A stretch of DNA of 64,000 nucleotides, from the NCBI RefSeq assembly GCF_040807025.1, contig NC_090952.1, forward strand, positions 25,665,068-25,729,067, written 5' to 3'. Below the pieces are notes generated by a model. The model did no database searches and was not told the DNA's origin. It saw only the letters and a list, made by a program, of their open reading frames with translations. Source of the stretch: Struthio camelus. Taxonomy: Eukaryota > Chordata > Aves > Struthioniformes > Struthionidae. Of this stretch, positions 9,792 through 61,000 are shown piece by piece; position 1 is the first letter of the stretch; each line of letters starts with the position of its first letter. The translations under genes and the position numbers were made by a program.

Positions 9792-34119
<24,328 letters not shown>

Positions 34120-37807: not shown

Positions 37808-38662
37808 GCCCCCGGAGCCCCCCAACTAGCCTGGCCCCCCGGAGCCTCCCAGAGACCCCCCCCAGCCTGGCCCCCCCCGGAGTCCCCCCCAGCCTGACCC
37901 CGCTCAGAGCCCCCCAACTAGCCTGGCCCCCCGGAGCCTCCCAGTGACCCCCCCCCAGCCTGGTCCCCCGGAGCCCCCCAATTAGCCTGGCCCCCCGGAG
38001 CCTCCCAGTAACCCCCCCCCCAGCCTGGTCCCCCGGAGCCCCCCAATTAGCCTGGCCCCCCGGAGCCTCCCAGTAACCCCCCCCAGCCTGGTCCCCCGGA
38101 GCCCCCCAATTAGCCTGGCCCCCCGGAGCCGCCCAGTAACCTCCCCCCAGCCTGGCCCCCCCGGAGCCCCCCAAGAAGTCTGGTCCCCCGGAGTCCCTCA
38201 GTGCCCTCCAGAGCCCCCCAGCTAGCCTGGTCTCCCAGTGCCTGACCCCCCCCCCCGAAGCCCCCCCAACTAGCCTGGTTCCCCGGAGCTCCCCAGTGCC
38301 CTCCAGAGCCCCCCCAACTAGCCTGGTCCCCCGGAGTCCCCCAGAGCCCCCCCCAGCCTTGTGCCCCCGAAGACTCCCCGGAGCCCCCCAACAAGTCTGG
38401 TCCCCCAGAGCCCCCCAGTGCCCTCCAGAGCCCCCCAACTAGCCTGGCCCCCCCCAGCCCCCCAGTGCCCTCCCTAGAGCCCTCCCAGCCCGGCCCCTCA
38501 GAGCCCCCAAAGCCCTGCAGCTATCCCAGTCCCTCAAAGCCCCCCAGAGTCCCTCATCGGCCCCCAACCAGCCTGGTCCGCCCCCCCCTCCCGAGACCCC
38601 TCCCAGGCTGCCCCATAGCGCCCCACTGCACCCCCCCACGCCCCGCCTGGCCCCTCCAGTGC
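37808..38662. repeat. C-rich minisatellite upstream of GJB1
   Basis: About 850 bp of tandem units of roughly 60 bp made of 'CTAGCCTGGCCCCCCGGAGC', 'CTCCCAGTAACCCC' and 'CCAGCCTGGTCCCCCGGAG' variants. Central copies (37,920-38,160) are nearly identical; flanking ones are degenerate. Long minus-strand frames across it encode Gly/Trp-rich repeats and are artefacts. Confidence 0.95.
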
Positions 38663-40963: not shown

Positions 40964-41803
40964 ATGAACTGGGCCGGCCTCTATACGGTCCTGAGCGGGG
41001 TGAACCGCCACTCCACCGCCATTGGCCGCATCTGGCTCTCCGTCATCTTCATCTTCCGGATAATGGTGCTGGTGGTGGCGGCCGAGAGCGTCTGGGGGGA
41101 TGAGAAGTCGGCCTTCACCTGCAACACGCAGCAGCCCGGCTGCAACAGCGTCTGCTACGACCACTTCTTCCCCATCTCGCACATCCGGCTGTGGGCCCTG
41201 CAGCTCATCCTGGTCACCACGCCGGCCCTGCTCGTGGCCATGCACGTGGCCTACCAGCAGCACCAGGAGAAGAAGCTGCTGATGCTGACGGGGCACGGCG
41301 ACGCCAAGCACCTGGAGGAGGTGAAGAAGCACAAGATGCGCATCGCGGGCTCGCTGTGGTGGACGTACGTCTGCAGCGTGGTGTTCAGGCTGCTCTTCGA
41401 GGCCGTCTTCATGTACCTCTTCTACATGATCTACCCGGGCTACCAGATGGTGCGGCTGGTCAAGTGCGAGGCCTACCCTTGCCCCAACACGGTCGACTGC
41501 TTCGTGTCGCGGCCCACCGAGAAGACCATCTTCACCGTCTTCATGCTGGTCACCTCCGGCATCTGCATCATCCTCAACATGGCAGAGGTGGTCTACCTGG
41601 TGGTGCGGGCGTGCGCTCGCCGCGGCCGGCCGGACTCCAACCCGCCGTCGGGGAAGGGCTCCTTCTACGGCCACAAGCTCTCCTCCGAGTACAAGCAGAA
41701 CGAGATCAACCAGCTGCTGACGGAGCAGGACGGCTCCCTCAAGGACATGCTGCGCCGCAACCCCGGGCTGCAGGAGAAGGGCGACCGCTGCTCGGCCTGC
41801 TAG
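40964..41803 (+). CDS. GJB1: GJB1, gap junction beta-1 (connexin 32)
   Basis: Connexin 32 oligomerises into hexameric hemichannels forming gap junctions, notably in liver and myelinating Schwann cells. This single coding exon gives 279 residues (human 283). N-terminus [21 protein letters not shown]; four membrane helices at about 20-40, 75-95, 130-152 and 188-210. EC1 cysteines are 53, 60, 64 (C-X6-C-X3-C) and EC2 cysteines 168, 173, 179 (C-X4-C-X5-C). The cytoplasmic loop is short, as in beta connexins. The tail carries EYKQNEIN and ends CSAC, the CaaX-like prenylation motif of Cx32. The ATG has A at -3 and follows the acceptor CCCGCAG (40951) by 12 nt, so all coding lies in one exon as in mammals. 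It lies 6.8 kb after NLGN3 and is followed by a second connexin. Confidence 0.98.
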
Positions 41804-41841: not shown

Positions 41842-41847
41842 ATTAAA
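41842..41847 (+). other. GJB1 poly(A) signal
   Basis: ATTAAA 39 bp after the GJB1 stop, following a (GCCC)n stretch. If used, the 3' UTR is only about 60 nt, far shorter than in mammals. No other signal occurs before the next gene. Confidence 0.55.
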
Positions 41848-42275
41848 GCTCCCATCCCCGACGCTGCCTCCCTCCTTTCTCCTCGCCGTCGGGCCCGGCG
41901 GGGGGTCGCGGAGGCCGGCCCGGCGGGGGGCAGCGGCGGCGCCGAGCCCCGGCAGCCGGCGCGCGGGTGGCATTGAGCGGCGGCCAAGGGCTCGCGCTGC
42001 CCCCAGCGCCGTCCCCTGCAGCCCCCGTGTATATTTAGAGGGGCGGGGGGGGGGGAAAAAGCTCCCAGGCCAAAAATAGAGGAGGGAAAAAAAAAAAAAA
42101 GGTTTTCCCAGTGGCCGTGTCATCTGCCGCTCAGGACGTGAGCCAATGGGGCCCGCAGCCGGCTCGCTGCCCGCTAACCCCTCGCCGGCCGGCCGGAGCC
42201 GTCCGCGCGCCCGCCGCTCCGGCCGGGGAGGGCTGGGGCTTGGCGGCGCGGCCGTCTTCGGGGCGTCGCGGCGCC
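41848..42275 (+). promoter_or_regulatory. Upstream region of the second connexin
   Basis: GC-rich. It contains an AT-rich TATATTTAG (about 42030, TATA-like or MEF2-like), CCAAAAATAG (about 42070, MEF2/CArG-like), an A14 run (about 42088-42102) and a CCAAT box at 42143-42147, 129 bp before the ATG. No clear splice acceptor precedes the ATG, so transcription may start here without a 5' UTR intron. Inferred from motifs only. Confidence 0.4.
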
Positions 42276-43010
42276 ATGGGGGACTGGAGCCTGCTGGGGC
42301 GGCTGCTGGAGGGCGCCCAGGAGCACTCGACGGCGGTGGGGCAGGTCTGGCTGTCCGTCCTCTTCGTCTTCCGCATCCTGGTGCTGGGGGCGGCCGCCGA
42401 GCGCGCCTGGGGCGACGAGCTGGCCGGCTTCGCCTGCGACACGCAGCAGCCCGGCTGCCAGAGCGCCTGCTACGACAGCGCCTTCCCCATCTCCCACCTC
42501 CGCTTCTGGGTGCTGCAGATCATCTTCGTCTCCACCCCCAGCCTGCTCTACCTGGGCCGCGTCCTGCACCTGCTGCGCCGGCAGGAGAAGGCCCAGCGGC
42601 GCGCGGCGGCGCGGGCCGGCGGCGGGGCCCCGCGGCGGCCGCCCCCCGGCCGGACCCGCTTGCGGGGCGCCCTGCTGAGGACCTACGTCTGCAGCGTGGT
42701 GTCCAAGGCGCTGCTGGAGGTGGGCTTCGTGGCGGGCCAGTGCGCCCTGTACGGCTTCGAGCTGAGGCCGCTCTACACGTGCCGCCGCTGGCCCTGCCCC
42801 AACGCGGTCAACTGCTACGTCTCCCGGCCCACCGAGAAGACCATCTTCATCCTCTTCATGCTGGCGGTGGCTTGCGCGTCCCTGCTGCTCAACCTCGTCG
42901 AGATCTACCACCTGGCCACCACCAAGTGCCGGCCGGGCCCCCGGCCCCGCGTCCCGCCCGGGGGGCGCAGCCCCGGCAGGGAGCCGCCAGCGGGGGACCT
43001 GGCCGTGTGA
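42276..43010 (+). CDS. Alpha-type connexin, 244 residues, adjacent to GJB1
   Basis: A complete intronless connexin with a strong Kozak context (GCCATGG). EC1 cysteines 54, 61, 65 (C-X6-C-X3-C) and EC2 cysteines 169, 174, 180 (C-X4-C-X5-C) are canonical, followed by SRPTEKTIF. The N-terminus ([23 protein letters not shown]) and [24 protein letters not shown] resemble the alpha group (GJA1/GJA4/GJA5) rather than GJB1. The cytoplasmic loop (about 101-130) is short and Arg/Pro/Gly-rich, unlike the longer loops of alpha connexins. The tail is only about 30 residues and ends DLAV, similar to the D-L-x-hydrophobic tails of Cx43, Cx40, Cx46 and Cx50 that bind ZO-1. It is GC-rich like its surroundings, with no frameshift. 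I cannot assign an orthologue; non-mammalian connexins of 27-29 kDa are the likeliest relatives. Confidence 0.92.
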
Positions 43011-43030: not shown

Positions 43031-43036
43031 AATAAA
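43031..43036 (+). other. Poly(A) signal of the second connexin
   Basis: AATAAA 20 bp after the TGA stop, implying a 3' UTR of only about 45 nt. Both connexin genes here have unusually short predicted 3' UTRs. Confidence 0.7.
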
Positions 43037-43361: not shown

Positions 43362-44378
43362 GCACGTGGGGATGGGTGCACAGGGACAGGGTGCATGGGG
43401 ATGGGTGCACAGGGATGGATTGCATGGGGACGGACACACAATCAGGGTGCGTAGGGATGGATTGCATGGGGACGGACACACAGTCAGGGTGCAGAGGGAC
43501 AAGGTGCATGGGGATGGGTGCACAGGGACACAGTGCATGAGGACGGACACACACGGTCAGGGTGCATGGGGATGGGTGCACAGGGATGGATTGCATGGGG
43601 AGAGACACACACGGTCAGGGTGCACAGGGACAGGGTGCATGGGGAAGGACACACAAGGTCAGGGTGCACAGGGACAGGGTGCATGGGGATGGGTGCATAG
43701 GGATGGATTGCATGGGGAGAGACACACACGGTCAGGGTGCACAGGGACAGGGTGTACAGGGACAGACACACACGGTCAGGGTGCACAGGGACAGGGTGCA
43801 TGGGGATGGGTGCACAGGGACAAGGTGCATGGGGAAGGACACACAAGGTCAGGGTGCACAGGGACAGGGTGCATGGGGATGGGTGCATAGGGATGGATTG
43901 CATGGGGACGGACACACGTGGTCAGGGTGCACAGGGACAGGGTGCATAGGGATGGATTGCATGGGGACGGACACACGTGGTCAGGGTGCACAGGGACAGG
44001 GTGCATGGGGATGGGTGCATAGGGATGGATTGCATGGGGACGGACACACGTGGTCAGGGTGCACAGGGACAGGGTGCATGGGGACAGACACACACGGTCA
44101 GGGTGCACAGGGACAGGGTGCATGGGGATGGGTGCACAGGGATGCAGTGCATGGGGACGGACACAGGCGGTCAGGGTGCACAGGGACAGGGTGCATGGGG
44201 AACGGACACACATGGTCAGGGTGCAGAGGGACGGGGTGCACGGGGGACGGACACACATGGTCGGGGTGCATGGGGACAGGGTGCACATGGTCGGGGTGCA
44301 CAGGAACAGGATACAAAGGGATGGAGGTGCATGGGAAGAGGGTGCACAGGGACGGGGCGCATGGGGACAGGCACCCAG
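43362..44378. repeat. G-rich minisatellite between the convergent connexin and ZMYM3 genes
   Basis: About 1 kb of tandem repeats built from 14-15-nt variants of GGTGCAcagGGACAG, GGTGCATGGGGATG and ATTGCATGGGGACGG. They alternate with ACACACrxGGTCAGG in higher-order units of roughly 60-75 bp. Near-identical higher-order copies (for example around 43,900-44,060) suggest recent expansion. The long open frames across it encode only repeat peptides and are artefacts. Confidence 0.95.
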
Positions 44379-45843: not shown

Positions 45844-46042
45844 TCAGTCCATGTCATCCTCAAGGCCCCCGAGCCGGCTGTGCTCCTCGTAGATCTCCCT
45901 CACGGCCAGGATGCGGTTCAGCATGCTCTCCAGCATGCTCCTGTCCATGGGGATGACCGAATACCAGAGGGGCGACTCGGCAATGCACGACCGCTCGGGC
46001 TGCAGGTAGAAGATGTCGTTCCGGTTCCGCAGACTCTCGGGG
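45844..46042 (-). CDS. ZMYM3: ZMYM3 terminal coding exon
   Basis: 199 nt including the TGA stop. CPESLRNRNDIFYLQPERSC, IAESPLWYSVIPMDRSMLES, MLNRILAVREIYEEHSR. The last residues (LGGLEDDMD) differ slightly from human, where the tail is also acidic. Confidence 0.96.
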
Positions 46043-49000
46043 CTGCGAGGAGAGAGGAAGGTGAGCCCTGTGACAGCAGCATGGGCCTTGGTGCCTCCCA
46101 CCCCACCGGGGGCTTAGAAAGCCTAGCATGCCCCTGCCGGTTATCAAGGAGGGCTCAGACTTGCTTCAGGTGTCAGTCTCAGCCTCGAGCAGGACAAGGC
46201 CTGGAGCACCTCACTCAGGACCAAACTCCTTAGCCAGCCAAGCACCAAGACGCACATTCGATGCCTCTGTGTGCCGCACGAGAAGGCAAGGAGTGGAAGG
46301 AGCCAGAGAGGTGTTTCCTCAACCATGGGCAGTAAGCATTGCAGAGCCTGGGCAAGGCTTTACACTCAAAGAACTAACTCTGCATGTGTGGAGAGCAGCA
46401 GCCACTCCACAGGCTCCCACTGGAGCTGAAAGGTGGCCCCGGAAAGGACGCACGTCCCGTCTCCCAAGAAAGCCTCACCATTTGGAGAGATAAAATTCAT
46501 AGAACTTGACTGGACATCGGAGAGGGTTCATCCTGTTCTCCCGCTGCTCCAGGATTGGCATCTCCTCCTCGCGCTTCCGCTTTCCAGAAGTGCCCTCTGC
46601 AGAGGGGGACAGAGCAGGATCACAATTGGGAGCTGATGGGCGGAGGTAGGGGGAGGGAGAGACAGGTGCTCAGGCAGACCCTACCTCGGCCTTTCTTCTG
46701 CTTGGCAGGAGCATAGTAGCGGATGCTCACCACCTTCGCCATGCCACGGGCTGTGTTGCACTTGCGGGACTGGCGCACCACATTGGTGAAAGACAGCTGC
46801 ATGTGTTCCTCCGCTGTCTGCAGCCCAAAGAACTTGGTGTTGAAGAACATGAGGGTGTTGAGGAGCACAAAGGGCGAGTAAACACCCAGCTGCTTGCACT
46901 CCCAGAGGTGTTCCTCCTCAACACGTGAGAAAACTGCATCTGCAACACACAGACGAAGAATCAGGTCACACCCACAGTGGCCTTGTGCAGGCTCTAGGCT
47001 CGTTCAGGAGGGAACTAGAAGAATGACGTGCCTGCCTGGGATCCAGCTCCACACATCTGGGGAATATGGGCCTGGAGCATTCCCTTCACCCCAGGCAGAC
47101 AAACTCAGCTCAGCAGCGCAAGAGAGTTGTACTTCGCAACACTCACTTTGTGTGCACAGGGCAGTGTTGTGGAGCCAAGAACAGTTCCAGGAGGCTACTT
47201 CTCCAGAGCTGTCAGAGAGCTAGATGTTGGGTCTGCCCAGCCACAAACCATCCCAGAGTGTGGCCAAACCACGGGCCAGAACCCAGATCAATCCATACAG
47301 ATGGCCACAGAGTGAACTCGTCAGTGCTCCACCACATTCAGTGGGAGATAAAGAGCGAGCAGCAGGCCAGCTCCTGCCTAGACATACAGGTTTGAAGCCA
47401 AAGGCATCTGCTTGGAACAGCCAGCATGCAGAAAAGAGGCTGGACTAACCACAGACAGGACACTCTGGGATAGGGAGCCCAGATCACAGCATCCCAGATC
47501 ACAGCATCCCAAACAGCCTCTGCAGAGCTCTAAGTAACTTGCTCACAAGGCAGACAGGTAGCAGCACAGCAGCCTGGACCAACACTAGCGTGCAGGGCTC
47601 ACTCGTGGAGTGGGAATGCAAAGCAGGCATGGGCCATCAGGCCTCCTGCCTTGGTGTCCTCTTTGCCAAATGGCCGAGACATTGCTGCGAAATGAACTGT
47701 TGTAAAGATGCAAGCTGTACCAGGGCACAAAGCAACCATGCTCTGTTCCCAGCCACCCTGACTCTGGGCAAGAAAAGCTGCTGAGGTGTAAACCAGGTCG
47801 GCTCTGCTGCTGGGGTGGGTAAGAAATAGTTCATTATGTCCCCAACGCACAGCGGGACAGCGCTCTCTGTGCCAAGGAAGAGAGCAGAGGCCGAGGGAGC
47901 ACAATCAGACCGCAGGATCCGAGGCCAGGAGCAGAAACCGCGTGCATGTTTGGTGACTCAAGGTAAGCTGGAGACACATACTGTTTGGTAAGATTGTGGG
48001 TTGCCAGCCACTCAGGGACTTGTTCAGCTCCTGCACGAAGGTCAGGTAGTAAAGGTCTGTAAATATATTCACCATACGATTGTTCTCGAGCAGGTACTAG
48101 AAAGGACAGAACACACAGTCAAGAGAGACATGGCAGCACCTGGGGTGCAAACCCTCCCCAGAGAGCCCAGGGTGCACACAGCGCACTCCTTGCACAGTCA
48201 GCACTGCAGGGGCAGACTCAAAGCCCAACAAAGCAGACTTGGAAGAAGGGACTGACTTTGGGGAGGTCTCCCGGCCCTCCTCAAGGATGTACATGAAAGG
48301 TGCAAGGCCAGGGAATAGCTGCCACCTAGGGCAGCTGCTAGGGTTGGGAACAGAGATCGAACCAGATGGGTTCCTATCTTGGGGTGAGGCACTGAAGATC
48401 AGAGGCTAATGAACCTCTCTGGGTCCCCAGAAGGCAGAAGAAAGAGTATTCGCTCCCCTCGCCATATCTGACCCCCAAGTTTGGCTGCGGAGGACTTGAG
48501 GGCAGCAAGCCCTCCCTCACCTGCTGGATGCCGAGGCAGAGGTAATAGATGCTGTCTGGTTCGTATCGCTCCCCATTGGGCCGTGTTATTTCCTTGACAA
48601 ACTGGGCCAGGCCATAGTTGAGCTCAGCAGCTGTGCAGGCCAAGATGTCTTCCTTGATCCTCATGGGCTTGGCTGCAGAGGCAAGCAAGGCAGCCTCAGG
48701 CAACAGCCTGCAAGGCCAGGAGCACCTCAAAACTCCGGGCCCTGGCTGCGAGGAGGCTGCTGCCACTCCACCGCGTACAGACAGGGCACTTACGACCAAA
48801 GCGCAGCTCCTCTCCCTTGCTCGTCTCTCCCCCTGCGTACTTGGCTTGCACCCAGGACTTCCAGGCGTTCACACCGTACGAGTAGTTCAACGCTGTGCAG
48901 CTGGGCTGGCTGCTCATTGAGTCTCGAGAACAGCTTTCAGTGAGCACCAGGCGCTTCTGCCCCTGCAGAGAAGTGTACTGTGAGGATGGGCATGTAGCCG

Positions 49001-52000
49001 GGACAGATGCAAGAGTCCTGGCCACCCCTTTAACCTGCTGACAGCCAGCTAGCTCCCTCTCAGCGTGTCTCTGTCCACCAGAGCAGCCTTCTGCTGACAG
49101 TTCAGCCAACAAGGCCCATTAGTTATGGGGACCATAGCTGAAGAGCCCAAGTTTCACCATCGCCTGTGGCGTTCGTGGCCCCTCCAAAGTGACAGGCAAG
49201 TATCATTTCCTTTCAAGGAGCAGCCCATGGTCCGGACATGACCAGAAGGGAGAGGGCACAACCTCCCCAGCACACCGAAGCCTCCAGCACGCTTCACCTT
49301 AGAGTATTTCCCAGATGCCAGCTCCAACTCCAAACCCACTGAGCTCTGAGCAGACTGTAACCACTAAGAGCTCACCTTTCGGACAGCACGAGGCAGGTCT
49401 TGCTCTGTGGACACATCTTCTGGCCCTACCAGCCCACAGTCGAAAAGGAAATCCACACTGGGGTTGATGTCTAGTGGGTCTGACAAGAAACACAAGCAAA
49501 AGGGCTCAGTTGAGCCATCTCATTCTGTTCCCAGCAGATGTAAGAGGTGGGCAGGAGTCTAAGCCAGGTTACACCTCTGTCCCCGACCTCTCTCAGTTGC
49601 TTCTTACAGCAGGACAAAGTGGGAATCTGCAGCCCAGCACTTCACACCCTCCGCCCCTGCCTGGCAGGAACTTTTAGCCACGGCCCAACAAAAGAAACAG
49701 CATCACCTGCCAGAGAGGCTAAGCTTTCTCAGACTAATCAGAGCCCAAAATTCCCCCTTCTGACAGTTTGCCAGCACTGGGGACAGCCTAGCACAAGCAC
49801 CCCAATTCTCTGTCCTTTGCTGCTAGCATCCTGCCTCAGTGCTGCTGTGCTCCTGCTTGTCCCTGCCCTTCCTTTCCACTTTCTGCCCTCTGAAGGGCAT
49901 GCACAGCAACCCTGCCATCTCCCCGATGTCCTGCCCTACCCACATCTCTCTCAGGCTTTGCTGGATCCCCTGGTATCACTCAGAAGCACGCCAGCACCTC
50001 TGCCCTGCTCTTTATGCTGTTGAAGTCAGCTTTCTATTTCCTTTTCTCTGCAGAAGTGTGTCCACAGCAGGTCAGTAAGTCTAGGAAAACAGACTTGTTC
50101 AAAAGCCGTGATCTCCTACCCACCGCTGTGAGCAATCACCTGCAAGATTCTCAGTTCGTGGCCTCAAACCTGGACAGTCAGAGGGCAGGGGGAGGGAGTT
50201 CACAGCATGCAGCTCTTAATGCTGCGGGCAAAGGAAGGCCGAGGGCCGCAGGAAGACCCCACTGCAGCACAAGCAGCCCTGCATGCCTAGTTCACCAAGC
50301 TCTTACTCTTAGGGAAGTCAGCCTCCAGGTCCTGGCCAGGCTCATCGAGGACGTTTGCCATCTTGACGGCCATAGCCAACACATCATCCCGTGCTGGCCC
50401 AAACAGATCACAGTCCTCCAGGAGTCCCTCTGCACTCTGGTTACTCACCAGGTCTGCAATGCAAAAGCAGAGCAAGAAACCCAACTTTAAAGAAAGCCTT
50501 CTGGCTGTTTTCCCTGTGACAGATAGAAAATGAAGTCAGGCTCCCTGGGGCACAGTCCTGTGCTCAGAGCAACCTCACACAGCAGTCCCACAACGGCTGC
50601 CCTGCCCAGCTTTCCGCGGACAGTGAGACATTGGACCTTTGTCCTCTCCCCAGCCACAGCCTACTGAGGCTTGGGGAAAGCAGCCCCCAACTAAGAAGAT
50701 ATGTGAAGTCAAGATTCCCAGTCTTCTTGCTGGGAAGCTCCATTTCAAGTAAGAGCCTGAAAAGCCATGTGAATAAACTAATTGTGCGTGCATGCCCCAG
50801 CACTGGCACCTCTGAAAGGGACAGTGGCAGACACCGCTCCCTGCTGTGGCACTTGCCTCCTGGTGCCTCCTCAGCAGCAGCCTAGCATTCGCTCTTTGCT
50901 GCTGCTGCCTTTCTGAGGCTTTTAGAGGAGTGGCAATAAGGAGAGATGGTCTGGCTCCAGGTGCAGGCAAACCCCCCCAAGACTCCTGTTGCTGGGCCAG
51001 ACCAAATCATGGTAGAACCTACCGCACAGGTCTGAGGAGGCCTTGTCCAGTTCTTCAGCCTCTGCAATCATCTCAGCCATGGCCAGGATGTCAGCCTCCA
51101 GTGGGTTGGAGGGGATCTTCACCTTCAGCTCCTCAATGGTCTCCACGATTTTATCTGTGCTCTCCAGTGTGGTGGGCAAGAACATTGGCACAGGCACCTG
51201 TTGACAGCAGGACAGCAGGCAGAGATCAGACATAGGCTGTGCCCACAAGGAGTTTTGGTGCAGCTGACTGCCACAAAAGCAGAGACTGGGAAGAGGACGG
51301 ACAGAGAAGCAAGGAGAGGCTGTGGCATGGCAGGGTCAAGACAGTAAAAGAGAATAGGAGCAGGTGGAGTGTGTCGCTTACCGGGACAGGCATGGAGAAA
51401 GGCACAGGTACTTTCTGGCAGTACATATGCATAGGCACAGGCACGAAGATCGGGACGGGGATTGGCAACACAATCACCTGGGGCTTCCAGTCAGCCTCTG
51501 ACAAGAGCAAAAGTATGTCAGTGAGCTTGCTCCCAACAGCTCCTCCACCCAGTCCAGCTGCGCACTGCCATGTCCACACAGCTGTCCAGTGCCACAGCCC
51601 TTTCAGCGACCAGCTACCAAGAGCTGCAGCAGCAGCAAGCTGAACACACCCCAGCAACAGGGGAGGCTTGCCGTTAGCCAGAGGAGCAAGCCCTGCCCCT
51701 TCAAGAGGCCTAGCTCCCTTGCACAGGCTGCAGGCCACGCGCATGCCTGAGAGCAGCTACACAGCGGAACTTGCTCAGCAGATGGCCCCTCAGGCAAGCT
51801 CATGATCTCCAGAGAAAGAGGTGCTGTCCCGCATGCAAGAAGAGGAGAAAGGTGGCCTGGAAGCAGGATAATGCTGCAGTGCTCTCTGCAGTTCTCCTTT
51901 TGCCATGGACAAGAACGGGCTCCCTACAGCTAGCCCTGCAGCGTGTGCACTGCGCTGCCCGGACGCTCCTCAGCATGGTGCCAAACACCCGGGGCGCTGT

Positions 52001-55000
52001 ACGGCATTTCAAGCTGGATTCACACTCAGTTTGAAGCACAGAAATGCTGCTCACCCCTCCAACAGAAAACACCCTGTGATCCAGCAGAGACGTGTCTTAT
52101 CTCCTTACCTGTCTGACATCCTTTGGACTTCATTTCTATTTTGCAGGAAACGCCCCGGTTCTGCATCAGTGGTTTACACATAGCAGCTTTGTTCTTCCGA
52201 GGGGTGGCTGGAACTGGAGGGGGCGGGGGAGGTGGCGCAGCTGGAGACATCTGGGCTGAGGAAGTCTTTGCTGACAACTGAGGAAATCCAGAAAGCAATA
52301 GGTTGGTGTCCGTGAGAGGCAGCACCACCTTCCCAACTGCGGGTGCAGCTAGAGACACTCCCAGACCTCAGGCCAAAGCACTTCCCGGAGCTTGGCAGCC
52401 CCCAATGCACAGGCTCTGGTCTGAGACTTGCTCAGCCCTCCCAGGCCCACATGTTCCCACAGTCAGATCTGGCCAAAGGATTGCTAAGCTGATCCTGACA
52501 ACCAGCACACCTTATGGCAGCCCTGCAACAGCCAGTAGAGAGTCTGGTACCAGTCGCTCCCATCCCACGGCACAGATGGGAATGCAGAGGGACAGTGACC
52601 GCGCTCAGGCACAGGGGAGCACCGTGCAAGGAGTCAGCCCCGCAGTAGCAAACTGCTCTGGTGCCCATGTGTGATTCCTGGGGAACGGGTTATTCTCTCC
52701 TTTGGCAGGAGGTATGCTTATGCTGCCCTCCCTAGCAGCCCCTCTCAGCTCCTACTGCCCAGGCCACCACCATCTTGAAATATATATGTTGTAAGAGAAC
52801 GAACAGCAAACACGTCCTTTCCTGGGGATGTCCCGTTATACCATCCGAGAACTCCTACCTCAAACAGGCCTTACCATGTTAGTCTCTGCTTTCTGTGGGG
52901 AAGAGGCAGGTGGTTTTGGCTCAGAAGTCTGACCTGTAAGAGAAAGCAATGACTCTTAGTTAGAGAGCTCCTGGGCTAACAGGTCCCACTGTTGGGACTG
53001 GAGGTGGCAGCAGCCACAGGCCAGAGGGCAGGGATAGGCTCTCCAGAAACTGGTCCTGGGTCACTCCAGGAACAGTTAGTCATTCCAAAATCTCTAGTCC
53101 TAGTAGCTCAGAAGACACTAGAACTCCAAAATCAAGTCACTCCCACATCATTTTACGCTCCCTTGCTGTCCACCCCATCCCCATCACAGCAGGTCAGGAG
53201 AAATCCCAGCCCTTCATAGAGAGGATATCCCCAGCTCTGCCTACTGGCTTGCTGTACCGAGCCATGACCCCTCCCTGTGCCTCCATCTCCCTGTGACAAA
53301 TATCTTGGCAAAGTGCTTCGAGATCCCTAGGAAGAAGGTGATAGAGCTAGAAGTAGTGCTATGAAATACCCCAGAAAGCACAGACACAGCTTTTCCACAG
53401 CACTGGCAATGCAGTCCGCTCCCCGCCAGGAAAGAGCAGATCACCAGCAGGTAGAAGGCATGCGTGGCAGACGCTACTCTCAGTGATAACGATATCATCG
53501 GGGCTCGGATGATGGTTCCGGCTTGCTCAGTCTGCAGAGAACCTGCACCCGTCACCCAGACTGGCTGCTGTGCTAAAAGAGCACCTTATCCAAGTGTCCC
53601 ATGAGGCCTGGTTACCCACGTGGCTGGGAGAAAGAACTGCCTTCTACAGCACTGACTAACCATGGGCCATGCATGAAGGAGACACCTGCAAAGAAAGCAG
53701 CAGGCCTCAGCACCCAAAGAAAGTGGCAGCTCCCTCCGCATCTCATAGTGACAGGCTCTTCACAGGTAAGACCCAGACTCAAAAAGGATCAACATCCAGG
53801 GCATTTGTACTGTGCGGATTTCCTTTGTCCTGAGGAAATGCAGGACAGTCCTTGAGCAAACGAGGGCACAGTGGGATTCACTTGATGACTGTGGCGGGGG
53901 GGGGGGGGGGGGGCGGGGAGAGGGAGGAGGAACGACACCACAGATAAGTGCCAGTCCAAGAAAGCTCCCTGGCCTGCAGCTGGGCAATCAGCTATAGCAT
54001 CTGCAAGTCTGTCAGTGGGTCCAAGCTGTTCCTGTGACCTGCCCAAAGCAGACAGGCAGCACTTCTAGACAAAACCCATCAGTGACTTGAATGGGGAAAG
54101 GCTGTGGGGTACGAGCAGAGTCTCTGCTGCAGCGGAAGCAAAAGTAAAGTGCAGCGTCCCACAAGCCACGGGTTTAGGACTGTGGGCAAGAAGATCTTCC
54201 CCAACGGAGTTCCATGTGCTACACAGCCAGGCCTCCAGCCAAACTGTAGTTTATTCTTGGCTCTCATGCCAAAACCAGCCAGGAACTGTTGAGGCATCAT
54301 CTGCACCAACTGCTGACTTCGGGCCCTCTCTCCTCTCCGGCTGAATGGCCCTGGGCAGAGCTTGTTCCTCTTGGAAGTCTTTGGGCACAGTTCTGCAGTA
54401 GAAGCTCCTCAATCACCTTGTTACACAGACACTGTTCCCAGTACAGGAACTGCCACTTTTACCACCAGCGATTGCTCTCAGGATCACCAGGCTGGCAGCA
54501 GCCACTCGGTCACAGCAATGAACGGTTTTAGGCAACCGCTAGCAACAAAAGTAGTAAGTTGGCAGCAGCTCTGCTCAAGATGGGGCTGAAAGCCAGACAG
54601 TCCCTTGTGAGCTGGCAATCCCGCTGCCAGGTCCACAGGAGACCCTGGCTGGACGGGGCAGCAGCTATACCATGCCACATGCTGCTGCTGAGTTGCTCTC
54701 CAAAATCCCCTGCACAGCTGGGGTGGCTCTTCTAAAACCTCTCTGTGTAAGTGCACAGCAGGCCTGGCTCCCAGCACCCTTTCCCTTCAAACTGACCGGT
54801 ATAACAGAGGTCCTAGGACAAGGATGTCCATAGCCATCCCAAAACAGGCAAGGAACGGGTGTGCCAGGACACAGAGAGGACCCAGCGCCATCAGTGACGT
54901 TCACAATGCTGCTTTTACAAAACTCCGTGGCTGCTGGAGCAGCCTGAAGCTTGTGCTCAGGCAAGCACTCACCGCTGTGGCAGAGCATCTCCTCGGCTTT

Positions 55001-58000
55001 CCTCAAAGTCCTCTGGCTCATAGGGCTCACGCAAAGGCCTCGCTGGCAGAGTGCTGGGCAACGCCCCACACGCTAAACGGAAAAGCTCTTGGCTATTTCC
55101 AGAAATGTGGTGGAAGGGGGTGCTCAGGAAATACTTCTGGTCCGTGGTGGCAGAGGGGGTTTTTAAGAGAGTCCTGCGGTCCATGACTCCAACAGGCAAT
55201 AGCCAAAAGGTGTGAAATAGATGCTTCCTTCAACAGGTAGCGGATGGCTTGCCGTGCCTGTGTTCCAAAGGCAGTGTTACAGGTCCCCCATATTTAATAT
55301 GCCTTGAAAGCAAAGAGTACAAATCCAACAGCATGACTAGCACTGTGGATTTCCTGGGCTAGCTACAGGAACGGGCAAACTTAACTGCCTCTTCCTCTAC
55401 CACAGCAGCAGGACACTGTGCCCCATCAAGCACTCTCCCTCTGGGCACCCAGTGCCAGCAGAAACCAACAGTTCTTTGTCCAGATCACTCCGGTGTGCTA
55501 CAACTCAAGCATGCCTGGCTGTCGCACCACACAACGTTTACACGGCATGGCTCTTGGATGGCAGGCCAGGGTTCCTCAGGCTGGAGGAACCTGCTGCTTC
55601 TGGCAGAGCAGCTCCGCCTTGCTCTTTAAGCAGTCCTGACATCCTGTGCTTTCCTCATCTTGCAGTTAGCCCACTGCTGTCAGGAGAGAGGAACCAGAAG
55701 GTCTAGAGACTGGGAACAGGGTCTCTCAGGGAAGGTCCTTGTCTCGGTTTCCCCTCCTTGGTCCATCCTAGCCAGGGTTTTAGACCTCGTGGAACTCCAG
55801 CAGGGCAGCAAAGCCCTGAGCCTGCAATATCGGTATCTGCCACCAAAGTGAATCACACCACAAGCTGCAGACATCTTATTAACCAGATCACGTTGCCTAG
55901 AAGATCCTGGCCTATGAAAGACCAAGCAGACCAAGCAGAATGAGACTAAGCGAGCGTCCGAGGGCCAAACGACGTCTTGTCACTTGTCACTATGAGAACC
56001 TTCCATCCTGAGGGACCCCAAAGCACTTTGCAATCTTCCATAAACAACTGGCTCAAGTTAATGATAGGAAACGGGGCAACAGGCAGTGAAAATCTCCTCT
56101 CCAGCTGGAACTCCATGGATGCAGAATTGGGTTATCCGGGACACGGGGTTGGCAACTCCCCAAAGCTGCCAGGGATCTTTGGATAAGTGGTAGGACTTCA
56201 ATCCACCATCACAAAACAGAGTGCCTCCAGCAGCTCAGTGCTCCCTCAAGAACGTTATAGGTTCAGCTCTGACTGAGGAGAGCCCACCTACAGCATCACC
56301 AGCACCACTTCCTGCAGCACCCTGCGTTTTCCTTGAATGTCTCCCATCCAAGCACTGACCTGGCCCAATCCTGCTTAGCTTATGAGATCTGAGAAGGTCA
56401 CAGCTCGGAGGTGGTGTGGGGCTGCAGGTGGATTATCATGCCAAACCACGCTGTCCCCTAACCCTGTAAATCGAGCTCTCCGCTGGCAACATGAGGATGG
56501 AGTCGCCCATTAAATCCCTGAGTATCCTCGCTAAGAGTGTGAGCTACAGGCAGCACGCTGGCACCGGCTCCTCCCGTCTGGGCCCTGTGTGTCATAGAAC
56601 CATAGACGTTAGAGATGGAGAAGCCCCATTAGGTCCCACTCCGTCCTTTCCCCCCCAGGGGCCAGTGCAGGATTGTTCCCTAGCGTCTCATCCAGTCCCA
56701 GGCAGGAAGCTTCCACCCCTCGCTGTTCGGTCTTCCCTGTGTCTCTCGGACTGAGCTATGCAGGTCCCCTCCCTCCCTCCTACTCACTGTTCAGCAGGCT
56801 CTCGGGCCCCTTCTGCGTGTCCAGGTTGGGCTGGTTCTGTTGATTGTAAAATCGCAGCAGACACTGCTGGTTGCAGAAGTGTTTGATTTGCCCTCGCCAG
56901 TGGATGGTTTCCAGCAGCTTCCCCTGACGCTTGCAGGCATGGCACCGAGCTGCCTAAAGCCCGCATCAGCAGGAGAGAAACAACGAGTAACTAACCACAC
57001 CCCCTCCGAGTGCAACACAACTCTCCAGTGAAAGGTGCACATGGCAAGGTGCTGTGAGCTTCCCCACAGCAGTGCCCTGCCAGTGCCAGCCGGGGACTCC
57101 AGCGGTGCGAACTTCTCACAGCAGCACTAGCCGCGGATCCAGCACTGTGAGCTTCCTCAGTGCAGTGCTCTGGCAGGATCAGCTGGGGACTCCAGCTACG
57201 TGAGCTTCCCCGTAGCAGTGTCCCGTCATTGCCAGGCAGGACTCCAGCAGTGCCAGGTTCTCCGCAGCAGTGCCAGCCAGACTCCAGCAGCGCGAACTTC
57301 GTCAGTGCAATGCCCACTTATTTGGGTGCCGTGCCCACCACAGCACTTAGCACAAGCTGCCAGTGCCAATACTGACCTTGAAGTACCAGAGCAAGTATTT
57401 GCTTTTGCAGTCTTCACTACAGAAGTCCCAGGTGCTGCCCTCCAGCTGCTCGGTGACCGCCCGCTGGCAGGTCTGAGAACAGTAGGTGCAGGTGATGCAG
57501 CACAGGCCCAGGTTCTTGGTGAAATCCTGTTTGTAAAGAAGCACACACCCTGCGGAGAAACAATAGGAGTGAAACCTTCCCAGGATGAACTGGGGGCCTC
57601 CCTGACCCAAACATGACCAGAATCCAGGTCTGCGGAGACAACAGAGCACACGCAACACACTGTAGGGAACAATCCAGCACTGGCCCCTGGGGCTGGGATA
57701 AGATGGGACCTCATGGGGACTTGCCATCTCTCACCTCCATGCTTCTAGGAAGAGTCTGACTCCAACCTCCTGTGTGCAGGAACCCAGCAGGCAGGGCAAG
57801 GCCAGGTCAGGCCAGCCCAGACGCAAGAGCGTAGAAGTGCATGATGACAGGAGGAGCGGAGCTGCCACCTGCTGTCTCCCCAGCCCCCAGAGAGAGAAAA
57901 GCTGTGAGAAAGCCCTCCCCAAGGACACAATGAACGGTAAAGATCTTGCCCTAGGGCCTGGCTGGACAGCAAGCCATCCCCACGACAGTCCTCCCTTCAC

Positions 58001-61000
58001 TGCATGGTGAGGCTCTTGCCCCAGGGCCTGGCCAGTCTCCCCTCTGTTCCACTCCATGCTCTCTTCTCCTCCCCCAGCATGGGCTGGCAGGGGGTCTCTG
58101 CCTCTCCCATGCCTTCCCCAAGTACCTTCGCTGCAGAAGTTCTTCTCCACCCCAGAGAAACGGATCTTCTCATGCAGCAGCTTCTCCTGCTTGCAGTGCT
58201 CGCACTGAGACACTACCCCACGTAGCCGCTTGAAGTCCTCGCAGCAGTCCTTGCAGCAGAACTGATACACTTTGTCCTGCCAAAGAGACCGCCGCCAGGT
58301 CAGCCAGGCTGGCAGGAGGTCTCCACGCTTCCTGGCGTAGCGGGAGCAAGACTGTGGGGCTGAGGAGACCCAGTCTCCAAGTCCCCAGCTCTCCTCGCAC
58401 GGGGCTTAGCAGAAGGGGGCTTCCTCCCGCCCTAGCTCTGCTCTGCTGACCTTCCGCTGAACAAGACAGCGCGCTCGGGGCATGGTTTCCAGCCACGTCT
58501 CTACAGCTAAGCAGTTCAAAGCACTCGCTCAGAAGGAGCTCTAACCCTTGAGCTGGGAAAGGAAGAAGCTCTGCAGTCCTCCCCAAGGTTGGCCTCAGCC
58601 TCACTATCGCCCTGGGGAAAAGAGTGCTCACCTGCCAATCTAGGATCTCTGGCTTCCCACTGAAAAGATTGTGGCAGTAATGGCAGTTCAGGTGGATCCC
58701 TCCTTCTGGGCTGGTGCGCTGCAGAATACAAAGACAGTGCATGGAAGGAGTGTACGGAGGGCCGTGAGCACCCAGTTTTGCACCGCTGCTGCTCATCCTG
58801 CCTCCTCCACCGCTCACAGCCCCCACTCTGCCCTTGCTTCCACAGGCAGTGGCTCAGAGTCAGTCCGTCAGATCACGCATCCAGCTACCGGATAGCAGAG
58901 GCTTGGGCAATTCCACTTCGCTTCCAGGGTACTGGGTTCAGCTCTTGTCAGGTAAGCAAGCTTTCAGATTGCCAGCTCTCTGGATTTGAAAACACCAGGA
59001 TATGGGGACTCTGCTATCTTTCCTTAGGCTAAAAGCTCTGGAAGCACGTGTGCCTGGTGTCTAACATCAGGGTAATATGACTTCAGAATTCAAGCAGTCG
59101 TTCTCATCCCACCTTCCTCCGCTAGATTAGAGTGCCATTTAGCACTTGGTGTCTTGTCCCCAGTGATAGATTTATTAACAGAGTCATCTTCCTGGTTTTC
59201 TTCCTGATAACCTCTGATAAGGTGCTCTGCAAGCGTGCTGCATTTTTCAAGTCCCAAAGTAATTTTGGTGGCATTTTTCAGCACACTGCCAATTTTTCTT
59301 CAACATTAAAAATAATGTGGACATCAGATGAATATCCTTCCGGTCTGTGCGGTATTCTCAGTAGTCCTTTTGCTCCCTAGTCCCCAAACTTCAATTCTCT
59401 ATTCTCCTGCCAGTACTTCCAATACTTTAACTAATCCTTTCTGCTACAGTTTTAAGATGGGGAGCTCGCGCTGAATGGCATATCTGCTATAATCACAGAG
59501 CCTTTTCAAAATTCTTACTTTATCGACCTTATACCCCCACATTACTTGAGTGAGGCTGATGTAGGATCTTGCACTGACCTGTATTTAAGTGCATGTTATG
59601 TATGAGGAGCCAATCTTGTCAAGCAATCCAACTGCTTTTTATGACTGCCCTGATCTCAAAAGGAGTTAACGCTCCACCAGTTTTTGTTTCATCTGCAAAA
59701 TTTTTAGCACGCTGATGCAGACTTTACTTCCAGATTGCTGATGAAGCTGTTGAACTCTTTGGGCTTAACAGTGATCCCCAAGAAGCCCATCTTGAAATAC
59801 TCCCTCCAATGGTTTTTCTTTCACAAGTGTGTCCCGAGATCTGTCAATAAGATGGTTCCTAATCCAGGTTGTGTGTGGCTTTTCTGATACTTCACAATGC
59901 TGATTTTACATGGCAATAATCCAAGTGTCTTAAGAAGGTCTACAGCTGTAACAACTCTTCAGCTACTCTTACAAACAGGATTTGTGATCTCAGCAAAGGA
60001 TCATATCATTTTTATTAAAAAAAAAACAAAAACAAAAACCAACCCCCCCAAAACAAAAAAACCCAAAATACTGCAACTGCCATTAACTAAATCTCTACCT
60101 CTAGATTCTGCATTTTCTCAGTTGCCCAAGGCATGTCCTGACCTAAGTTTCCTGGGTCCTCCTGCTTGTCGCTTTGTTCTTTAAATTACCTTTGAATACC
60201 ACGAAGACTTCATACATACGAGAACTTTACAGCAGAAGATAAAAACCATCAGCCAAGCCTTTAAGGACTATTAGATGTATCCTGCTGATTTTGAATTTCT
60301 AGACATGTTCTAGGAGATTTATGTTCCTTGGTGATCTCTGGCTCAGAGGACAGCTCTGCCCCTTTCCACCATGCTAGCAGGTGCCCACTGTGCTTGTGCC
60401 CTTGTAAGGCCACTATATCCCACGACCGCTCATGCAGCGCAGCTCTGTACAGCACTCCCGCTGGGCGTAAGCTGATAGACAGGAGAGAACTACAGCCAGA
60501 CTTATCCCAGCTGAGGGGAGGGGAGGTAAGGCCAAGACTGAGTAATTGGCAGCTACAAGCACTGCAACTCAGGTCCTCCAGCAGAGCCTTTCCTATGGAC
60601 CCTCCCTGAGGAGCCTGAGGAAGCTGCAGCCTCTGCCGAGTATGAAAAGAGGCAGGAGGCTCTAGGGCTCAGCCCAGCATGAAGGATGTTTCAGTACCTG
60701 GAATTTGGTCCAGCAGCTGGGGCTGCAGAACTGGTAGACAACCCGGTCTGTCTTGTTGTAATAGCAGGGTTCAGATAAACTCTTTCTGCAGAAGCTGCAG
60801 GGTCTAGGGGGACCTGATGAAACAGACAGGAATCGGTGAGGGCAGCAGCACAGGACATGGGACTGGGTTCTGAGGATGGCATGCAGGCTACTCACTCCTC
60901 CTCAGTCTGTCAAGCTATAACCAGAAAGGAAGGGACAAGAACACCAGGAAACTAAGAGCACCAAGTTCTGCTAGGACAGAAATGTTAAACATGGATGGAG

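Follow-up and report, generated by a model that had tools for sequence, protein, structure and literature searches.

The open reading frame at positions 42276 to 43010 of the ostrich DNA analysed here is very probably bird gja2, an ancient paralogue of GJA3 lying beside GJB1, whose product would be a working gap-junction subunit, anchored through a PDZ-type end and reshaped by GC-biased substitution, with a role in muscle carried over from zebrafish. The apparent new gene is thereby settled, since it fits gja2, a group already described and a connexin that mammals lack (Mikalsen et al. 2021, PMC7914757). The observation made in the earlier note is correct, but the gene is not an undescribed one. 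The main points of note, which are modest, are its tail, a pair of docking residues and the apparently GC-driven rewriting of its sequence; these are possibly new, as the excerpts consulted do not mention them.

Results

The window, meaning the whole stretch of 64,000 nucleotides (C11:25665068-25729067 in an assembly of 1.45 Gb), contains gja2 within an NLGN3-GJB1-gja2-ZMYM block. The upstream neighbour on the + strand is NLGN3 (neuroligin-3, 9915-34077), given as a partial map with exons seen at 9915-10274, 32094-32876 and 33289-34077, the second of which scored 604.9 bits with neuroligin-3 versus 538.5 with neuroligin-4. It is followed by the coding exon of GJB1 (40964-41803, + strand), identical to PDB Cx32 at 165/190 positions over the conserved blocks. 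Downstream lies a ZMYM-type gene on the - strand (45847-63722), whose five scanned exon pieces carry MYM zinc fingers (three pieces), a QRICH1 domain (one) and a DUF3504 domain (one); it is named ZMYM3 on account of the human Xq13 gene order, NLGN3-GJB1-ZMYM3. Two minisatellites were also seen, a C-rich one between NLGN3 and GJB1 (37828-38512; periods of 27, 47, 65 and 128 bases) and another at 43369-44371, starting about 360 bases 3' of gja2, with a 15-base unit and a higher-order periodicity of about 73 and 117 bases. Published qPCR primers for chicken Gjb1 match GJB1 exactly at 41691-41712 and 41745-41759, and the span from 41691 to 41759 is 69 bases, equal to the reported product size (PMC12009728), which points to a bird genome. 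The ends of CR1 repeats, considered as a marker of the clade, gave a signal no better than chance.

Around gja2, motif matches on the + strand comprise an ATTAAA at 41842-41847, possibly the polyadenylation signal of GJB1, a TATA-like element, TATATTTA, at 42030-42037, 246 bases 5' of the gja2 ATG, and an AATAAA polyadenylation signal at 43031-43036, 20 bases past its stop. Because the ATTAAA motif precedes gja2, the two connexin genes could be transcribed apart. The start context of gja2 is GCCATGG. A muscle promoter, an idea taken from zebrafish, where gja2 is a muscle gene, was considered and dropped, as the MEF2 consensus has two exact matches in the whole window, both distant from gja2.

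The coding sequence is a single open frame on the + strand that begins with the ATG at 42276 and ends with the stop at 43010, giving 244 residues with zero internal stops, and 472 bp separate it from the stop of GJB1 on the same strand. The Pfam Connexin profile (PF00029) matches residues 3-214 over profile positions 1-224 of 225 (291.7 bits, E 5.5e-87), and PDB Cx46, the alpha-3 connexin of solved structure, matches the protein at E 3.2e-104, so that the intact connexin described in the earlier note stands. The six cysteines of the loops are spaced as is standard for connexins (C-x6-C-x3-C in the first extracellular loop, E1, and C-x4-C-x5-C in the second, E2), four hydrophobic helices are present, and the N-terminus, MGDWS, is that of PDB Cx46, Cx50 and Cx43. 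The length of the frame is by itself no proof, because, when the GC-rich segment 41804-43380 was simulated 500 times with a Markov model, 29.4% of the simulations held an ATG frame of at least 244 codons on one strand or the other; with long chance frames so common in such DNA, it is homology that carries the case. GC content at codon positions 1, 2 and 3 is 0.69, 0.54 and 0.99, and about 0.75 in both flanks. An antisense open frame of 245 codons (42174-42911, - strand) overlaps gja2 and was not taken as a gene, because such frames are expected at a third-position GC of 0.99. Rfam gave no matches at gathering scores, and an AlphaFold model of the protein, built on a two-row alignment, was too poor to be used (mean pLDDT 50.7).

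A search of the whole assembly with the gja2 protein returned 34 matches, which we grouped into 21 connexin genes; GJE1 was not sought in this count, and apart from GJB1 the genes were named from their sequence and location. A single match had 100% identity; ranked by E-value, GJA8 came next (62% over residues 1-223), and the first piece of the bird's own GJA3 matched at 72% over residues 1-110. For comparison, 18 of the 21 genes were aligned with five PDB sequences in 23 rows and 191 columns, leaving out GJD1, GJD2 and GJD4, which match gja2 more weakly in the assembly search; the PDB chains are presumably of sheep for GJA3 and GJA8 and human for the others. Here gja2 is identical to PDB GJA3 at 141/191 positions (74%), to the bird's own GJA3 at 134/191 (70%), to its GJA8 at 125/191 and to its GJA5 at 121/191 (63%). 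The ten closest of the 22 other rows are all GJA and the best non-GJA row reaches 97/190, in agreement with the alpha-type character that had been read from the N-terminus and second helix. Scans of the phages, genome_contigs and viral_contigs sets confirmed no connexin.

Lying on the same strand only 472 bp away, gja2 might be thought a recent tandem copy of GJB1, an origin already doubted in the earlier note and now to be dismissed with near certainty, considering that the two agree at just 83/190 positions (44%), that the corresponding topology was rejected in a seven-row tree test (delta lnL 127, AU p 4.7e-6), and that gja2 shares its N-terminus with the alpha connexins named above and its DLAV end with the bird's own GJA3. 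In the same test, AU p was 0.447 for gja2 with GJA3, 0.682 for gja2 outside GJA3 plus GJA8 and 0.062 for gja2 with GJA8, and the free seven-row trees did not separate the order of gja2, GJA3 and GJA1. The 23-row tree places gja2 nearest to GJA3, weakly; it pairs gja2 with PDB GJA3 to the exclusion of the bird's own GJA3 (89/57), an arrangement that is untenable as drawn and reveals how poorly the local branching is resolved. That GJA3 is the nearest relative would also agree with a GJA3 orthologue moved beside GJB1. This, too, has next to no probability, because the genome holds another gene, of 513 residues, on contig C1 near 203.98 Mb and beside GJB6 and GJB2, that is 177/191 (93%) identical to PDB GJA3, as orthologues of this bird and the PDB mammals are elsewhere (GJA8 172/191, GJA1 185/191; among the beta connexins, GJB1 165/190 and GJB2 160/190). 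At 74% instead of about 93%, and adjoining GJB1 instead of GJB2 and GJB6, gja2 falls outside the GJA3 orthogroup and is a GJA3-related gene distinct from the bird's own GJA3. With regard to a one-to-one mammalian orthologue elsewhere, which would have spoken against the loss proposed in the earlier note, the nearest mammalian gene is thus GJA3, present separately in the same genome.

The tail of gja2 after the fourth helix, taken at a fixed offset, has 29 residues, versus 262 in the bird's own GJA3, 169 in GJA8 and 133 in GJA5, and among the 18 own connexins only GJD3 (20) and GJB2 (14) have shorter ones, all lengths being read to the first stop with splicing ignored. Its last residues, GDLAV (42993-43007, + strand), resemble a PDZ ligand and match the ends of the own GJA3 (DDLAV) and of PDB Cx46 (ADLAI), and for this reason the tail has probably been shortened internally with its end kept. 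In Cx50 the last residue is required for ZO-1 binding and for plaques (PMC5267330). A distal exon holding the missing tail was considered and set aside, as the AATAAA, a motif match only, lies just 20 bases past the stop.

The replacements in gja2 are strikingly one-sided. The own and PDB GJA3 have the same residue at 177 columns, and from this shared residue gja2 departs 44 times, GJA5 45 times and GJA4 48 times; taking the GJA3 state as ancestral, gja2 has 16 gains and no losses of Gly, Ala, Arg or Pro, and one gain and 21 losses of Phe, Tyr, Met, Ile, Asn or Lys. The corresponding gains and losses for the two classes are 6/6 and 9/12 in GJA5 and 2/6 and 12/10 in GJA4, and in the unpolarised comparisons with human they are 4/3 and 7/4 in GJB1 and 8/5 and 8/4 in GJB2. 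At the 140 columns common to GJA3 and GJA8, the counts for gja2 are 9/0 and 1/12. We infer GC-biased gene conversion as the cause, while selection or relaxed constraint would also allow the pattern. The other 17 own connexins have 31 invariant residues in common, and gja2 retains every one of them; as 12 of the 18 genes likewise show zero core changes, this indicates a normal core and no more.

These features could also be signs of decay in a gene that this lineage has ceased to need, with the frame open by chance and the short tail and the GC-type replacements as the first steps of loss, and gja2 has been reported as lost in crocodiles (PMC7914757). The end branch of gja2 in the 23-row tree is 0.49 versus a median of 0.11 (GJA3 is near 0), a length that allows relaxed selection, although those of GJA5 (0.37) and GJA4 (0.32) are of comparable length. 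Nevertheless, we consider decay improbable: the frame has neither a stop nor a frameshift, all six loop cysteines and all 31 core residues are in place, the second and third codon positions still differ strongly in GC between flanks of intermediate content, and the PDZ-type end survives even though most of the tail preceding it is gone. The preferred reading is still that of a functional gene.

The docking surface of gja2 departs from that of Cx26, whose E2 docking residues are established (PMC6487695, PMC5414816). In the first extracellular loop signature (42435-42476, + strand), Asp55 (42438-42440) stands at the place of the Cx26 docking residue Asn54, and the stretch T168-C169 ... N176-A177-V178-N179-C180 in the second loop (42777-42815, + strand) corresponds to K168, N176, T177 and D179 of Cx26, so that gja2 keeps Asn176 and has Thr for Lys/Arg168, Ala for Thr177 and Asn for Asp179. 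Both N54 and D179 of Cx26 are docking residues, and for each only two or three out of 20 human connexins have another residue at the corresponding place (PMC5414816). In the set of 18 own genes, either change is found only in gja2 and GJA5, and both genes carry both; GJD1, GJD2 and GJD4 show Asn at the E1 position and, at the E2 position, Glu, Glu and Asp, respectively. A reading of Asp55/Asn179 as broken docking, against family invariants, came from a set of six connexins, in which gja2 departs at 7/72 positions invariant in the other five and Cx43 at 6/71, and was withdrawn when the wider set showed the same pair in GJA5. In the bird's own GJA3 (C1 near 203.98 Mb), His occupies the Cx26 N176 position (SPCPHTVDC), at which PDB GJA3 and gja2 have Asn, and GJA3 of birds may have shifted to another docking group.

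Discussion

GJA5 (Cx40) forms functional gap junctions, and because it carries the Asp/Asn pair, this pair looks mutually adjusted and not broken; it would most simply be a matched exchange, as in GJA5. We advance as a possible but doubtful further step that a nearly tail-less gja2, remade by GC-biased substitution with its PDZ end kept, owes the pair, otherwise present only in GJA5, to a reciprocal convergent adjustment that gives it a docking preference of its own. In fish connexins engineered as a pair, docking does respond to changes of charge at E2 positions (PMC13372691). The same departures from the pattern of mammalian GJA3, GJA8, GJB1 and GJB2 might instead mean that gja2 functions chiefly in unpaired hemichannels, or that its docking is homotypic only: all four positions, 54, 168, 177 and 179, are replaced, the K/R-N-D motif marks a compatible group and is subject to disease changes (PMC7455559), and the Cx26 variant D179N, though it arrives at the membrane and builds plaques, is recorded as having impaired channel function (PMC10604905, PMC10135792). 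This appears unlikely to us, given that the own GJA5 has the same Asp/Asn pair, that Asn176 is kept and that the own GJA1 also has Thr at the 168 position.

A working gap-junction subunit is thus the most likely role of gja2. From what is general in the family, six subunits would form a hemichannel, and a complete gap-junction channel would arise where two hemichannels dock by way of E1 and E2. The conserved DLAV end may tether the plaque to ZO-1 or another PDZ scaffold, whereas the regulatory tail has apparently been lost for the most part. GC-biased substitution would have reshaped the sequence with the universal connexin core kept. The gene stands beside GJB1 as GJA3 stands beside GJB2 and GJB6. 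Expression in skeletal muscle, coupling muscle cells, is suggested by zebrafish only and finds no support in the local sequence. In zebrafish, gja2/Cx39.9 is listed in skeletal muscle and without a human counterpart, and reduced slow-muscle contractility is cited for it from Hirata 2012 (PMC9073686). In the excerpts on gja2 and connexin we found nothing on the function of bird gja2, and in those on gene order in chicken or on a bird "gja3-like" nothing on the gene beyond PMC7914757.

The assignment to gja2 rests on the relation to GJA3, in a tree of the bird's own connexins and five PDB sequences, and on the linkage to GJB1. The published group, a "GJA3-related gene", occurs in most jawed vertebrates other than mammals, fishes and tetrapods alike, but is missing in crocodiles, and its lower-case name denotes that it contains no mammalian sequence, mammals there including the platypus; gjb1 and gja2 are tightly linked in cartilaginous fishes, and 22 connexins were counted in birds (PMC7914757), close to the 21 genes grouped here. 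The loss in mammals supposed in the earlier note agrees with this literature, but it is reported for mammals as a whole and not for therians only. The teleost gene cx39.9/gja3like was renamed gja2, and cx39.9 and gjb1 are tabulated on one chromosome in most teleost species (Mikalsen 2020, PMC7066803). The ostrich gene, 472 bp 3' of GJB1, shows this linkage at close range, and it offers a test case for whether, in a gene-dense part of a bird genome, drift driven by GC bias can remodel one channel gene and leave GJB1, 0.5 kb away, conserved, and for whether the E1/E2 Asp/Asn pair acts as a matched docking code.

Compared with known connexins, ostrich gja2 is like teleost gja2 (cx39.9) in being a GJA3-related, non-mammalian alpha connexin linked to gjb1; it has 244 residues and a 29-residue tail, whereas the name cx39.9 implies a fish protein of about 40 kDa. 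With GJA3 (Cx46, known in birds as Cx56) it shares the nearest sequence (70-74%), the DLAV/DLAI end and the arrangement of an alpha gene beside a beta gene, but GJA3 is a separate gene on C1, with 513 residues and 93% identity to PDB GJA3, and gja2 is far more diverged and nearly tail-less. GJB1 (Cx32), the adjacent gene, has the same domain plan and differs in belonging to the beta subfamily, at 44% identity. GJA5 (Cx40) shares the Asp of E1 and the Asn of E2 (CDTQQPGC ... VNCYVSRP), and differs from gja2 in its 63% identity, its 133-residue tail and the His that it carries at the 176 position, where gja2 has Asn.
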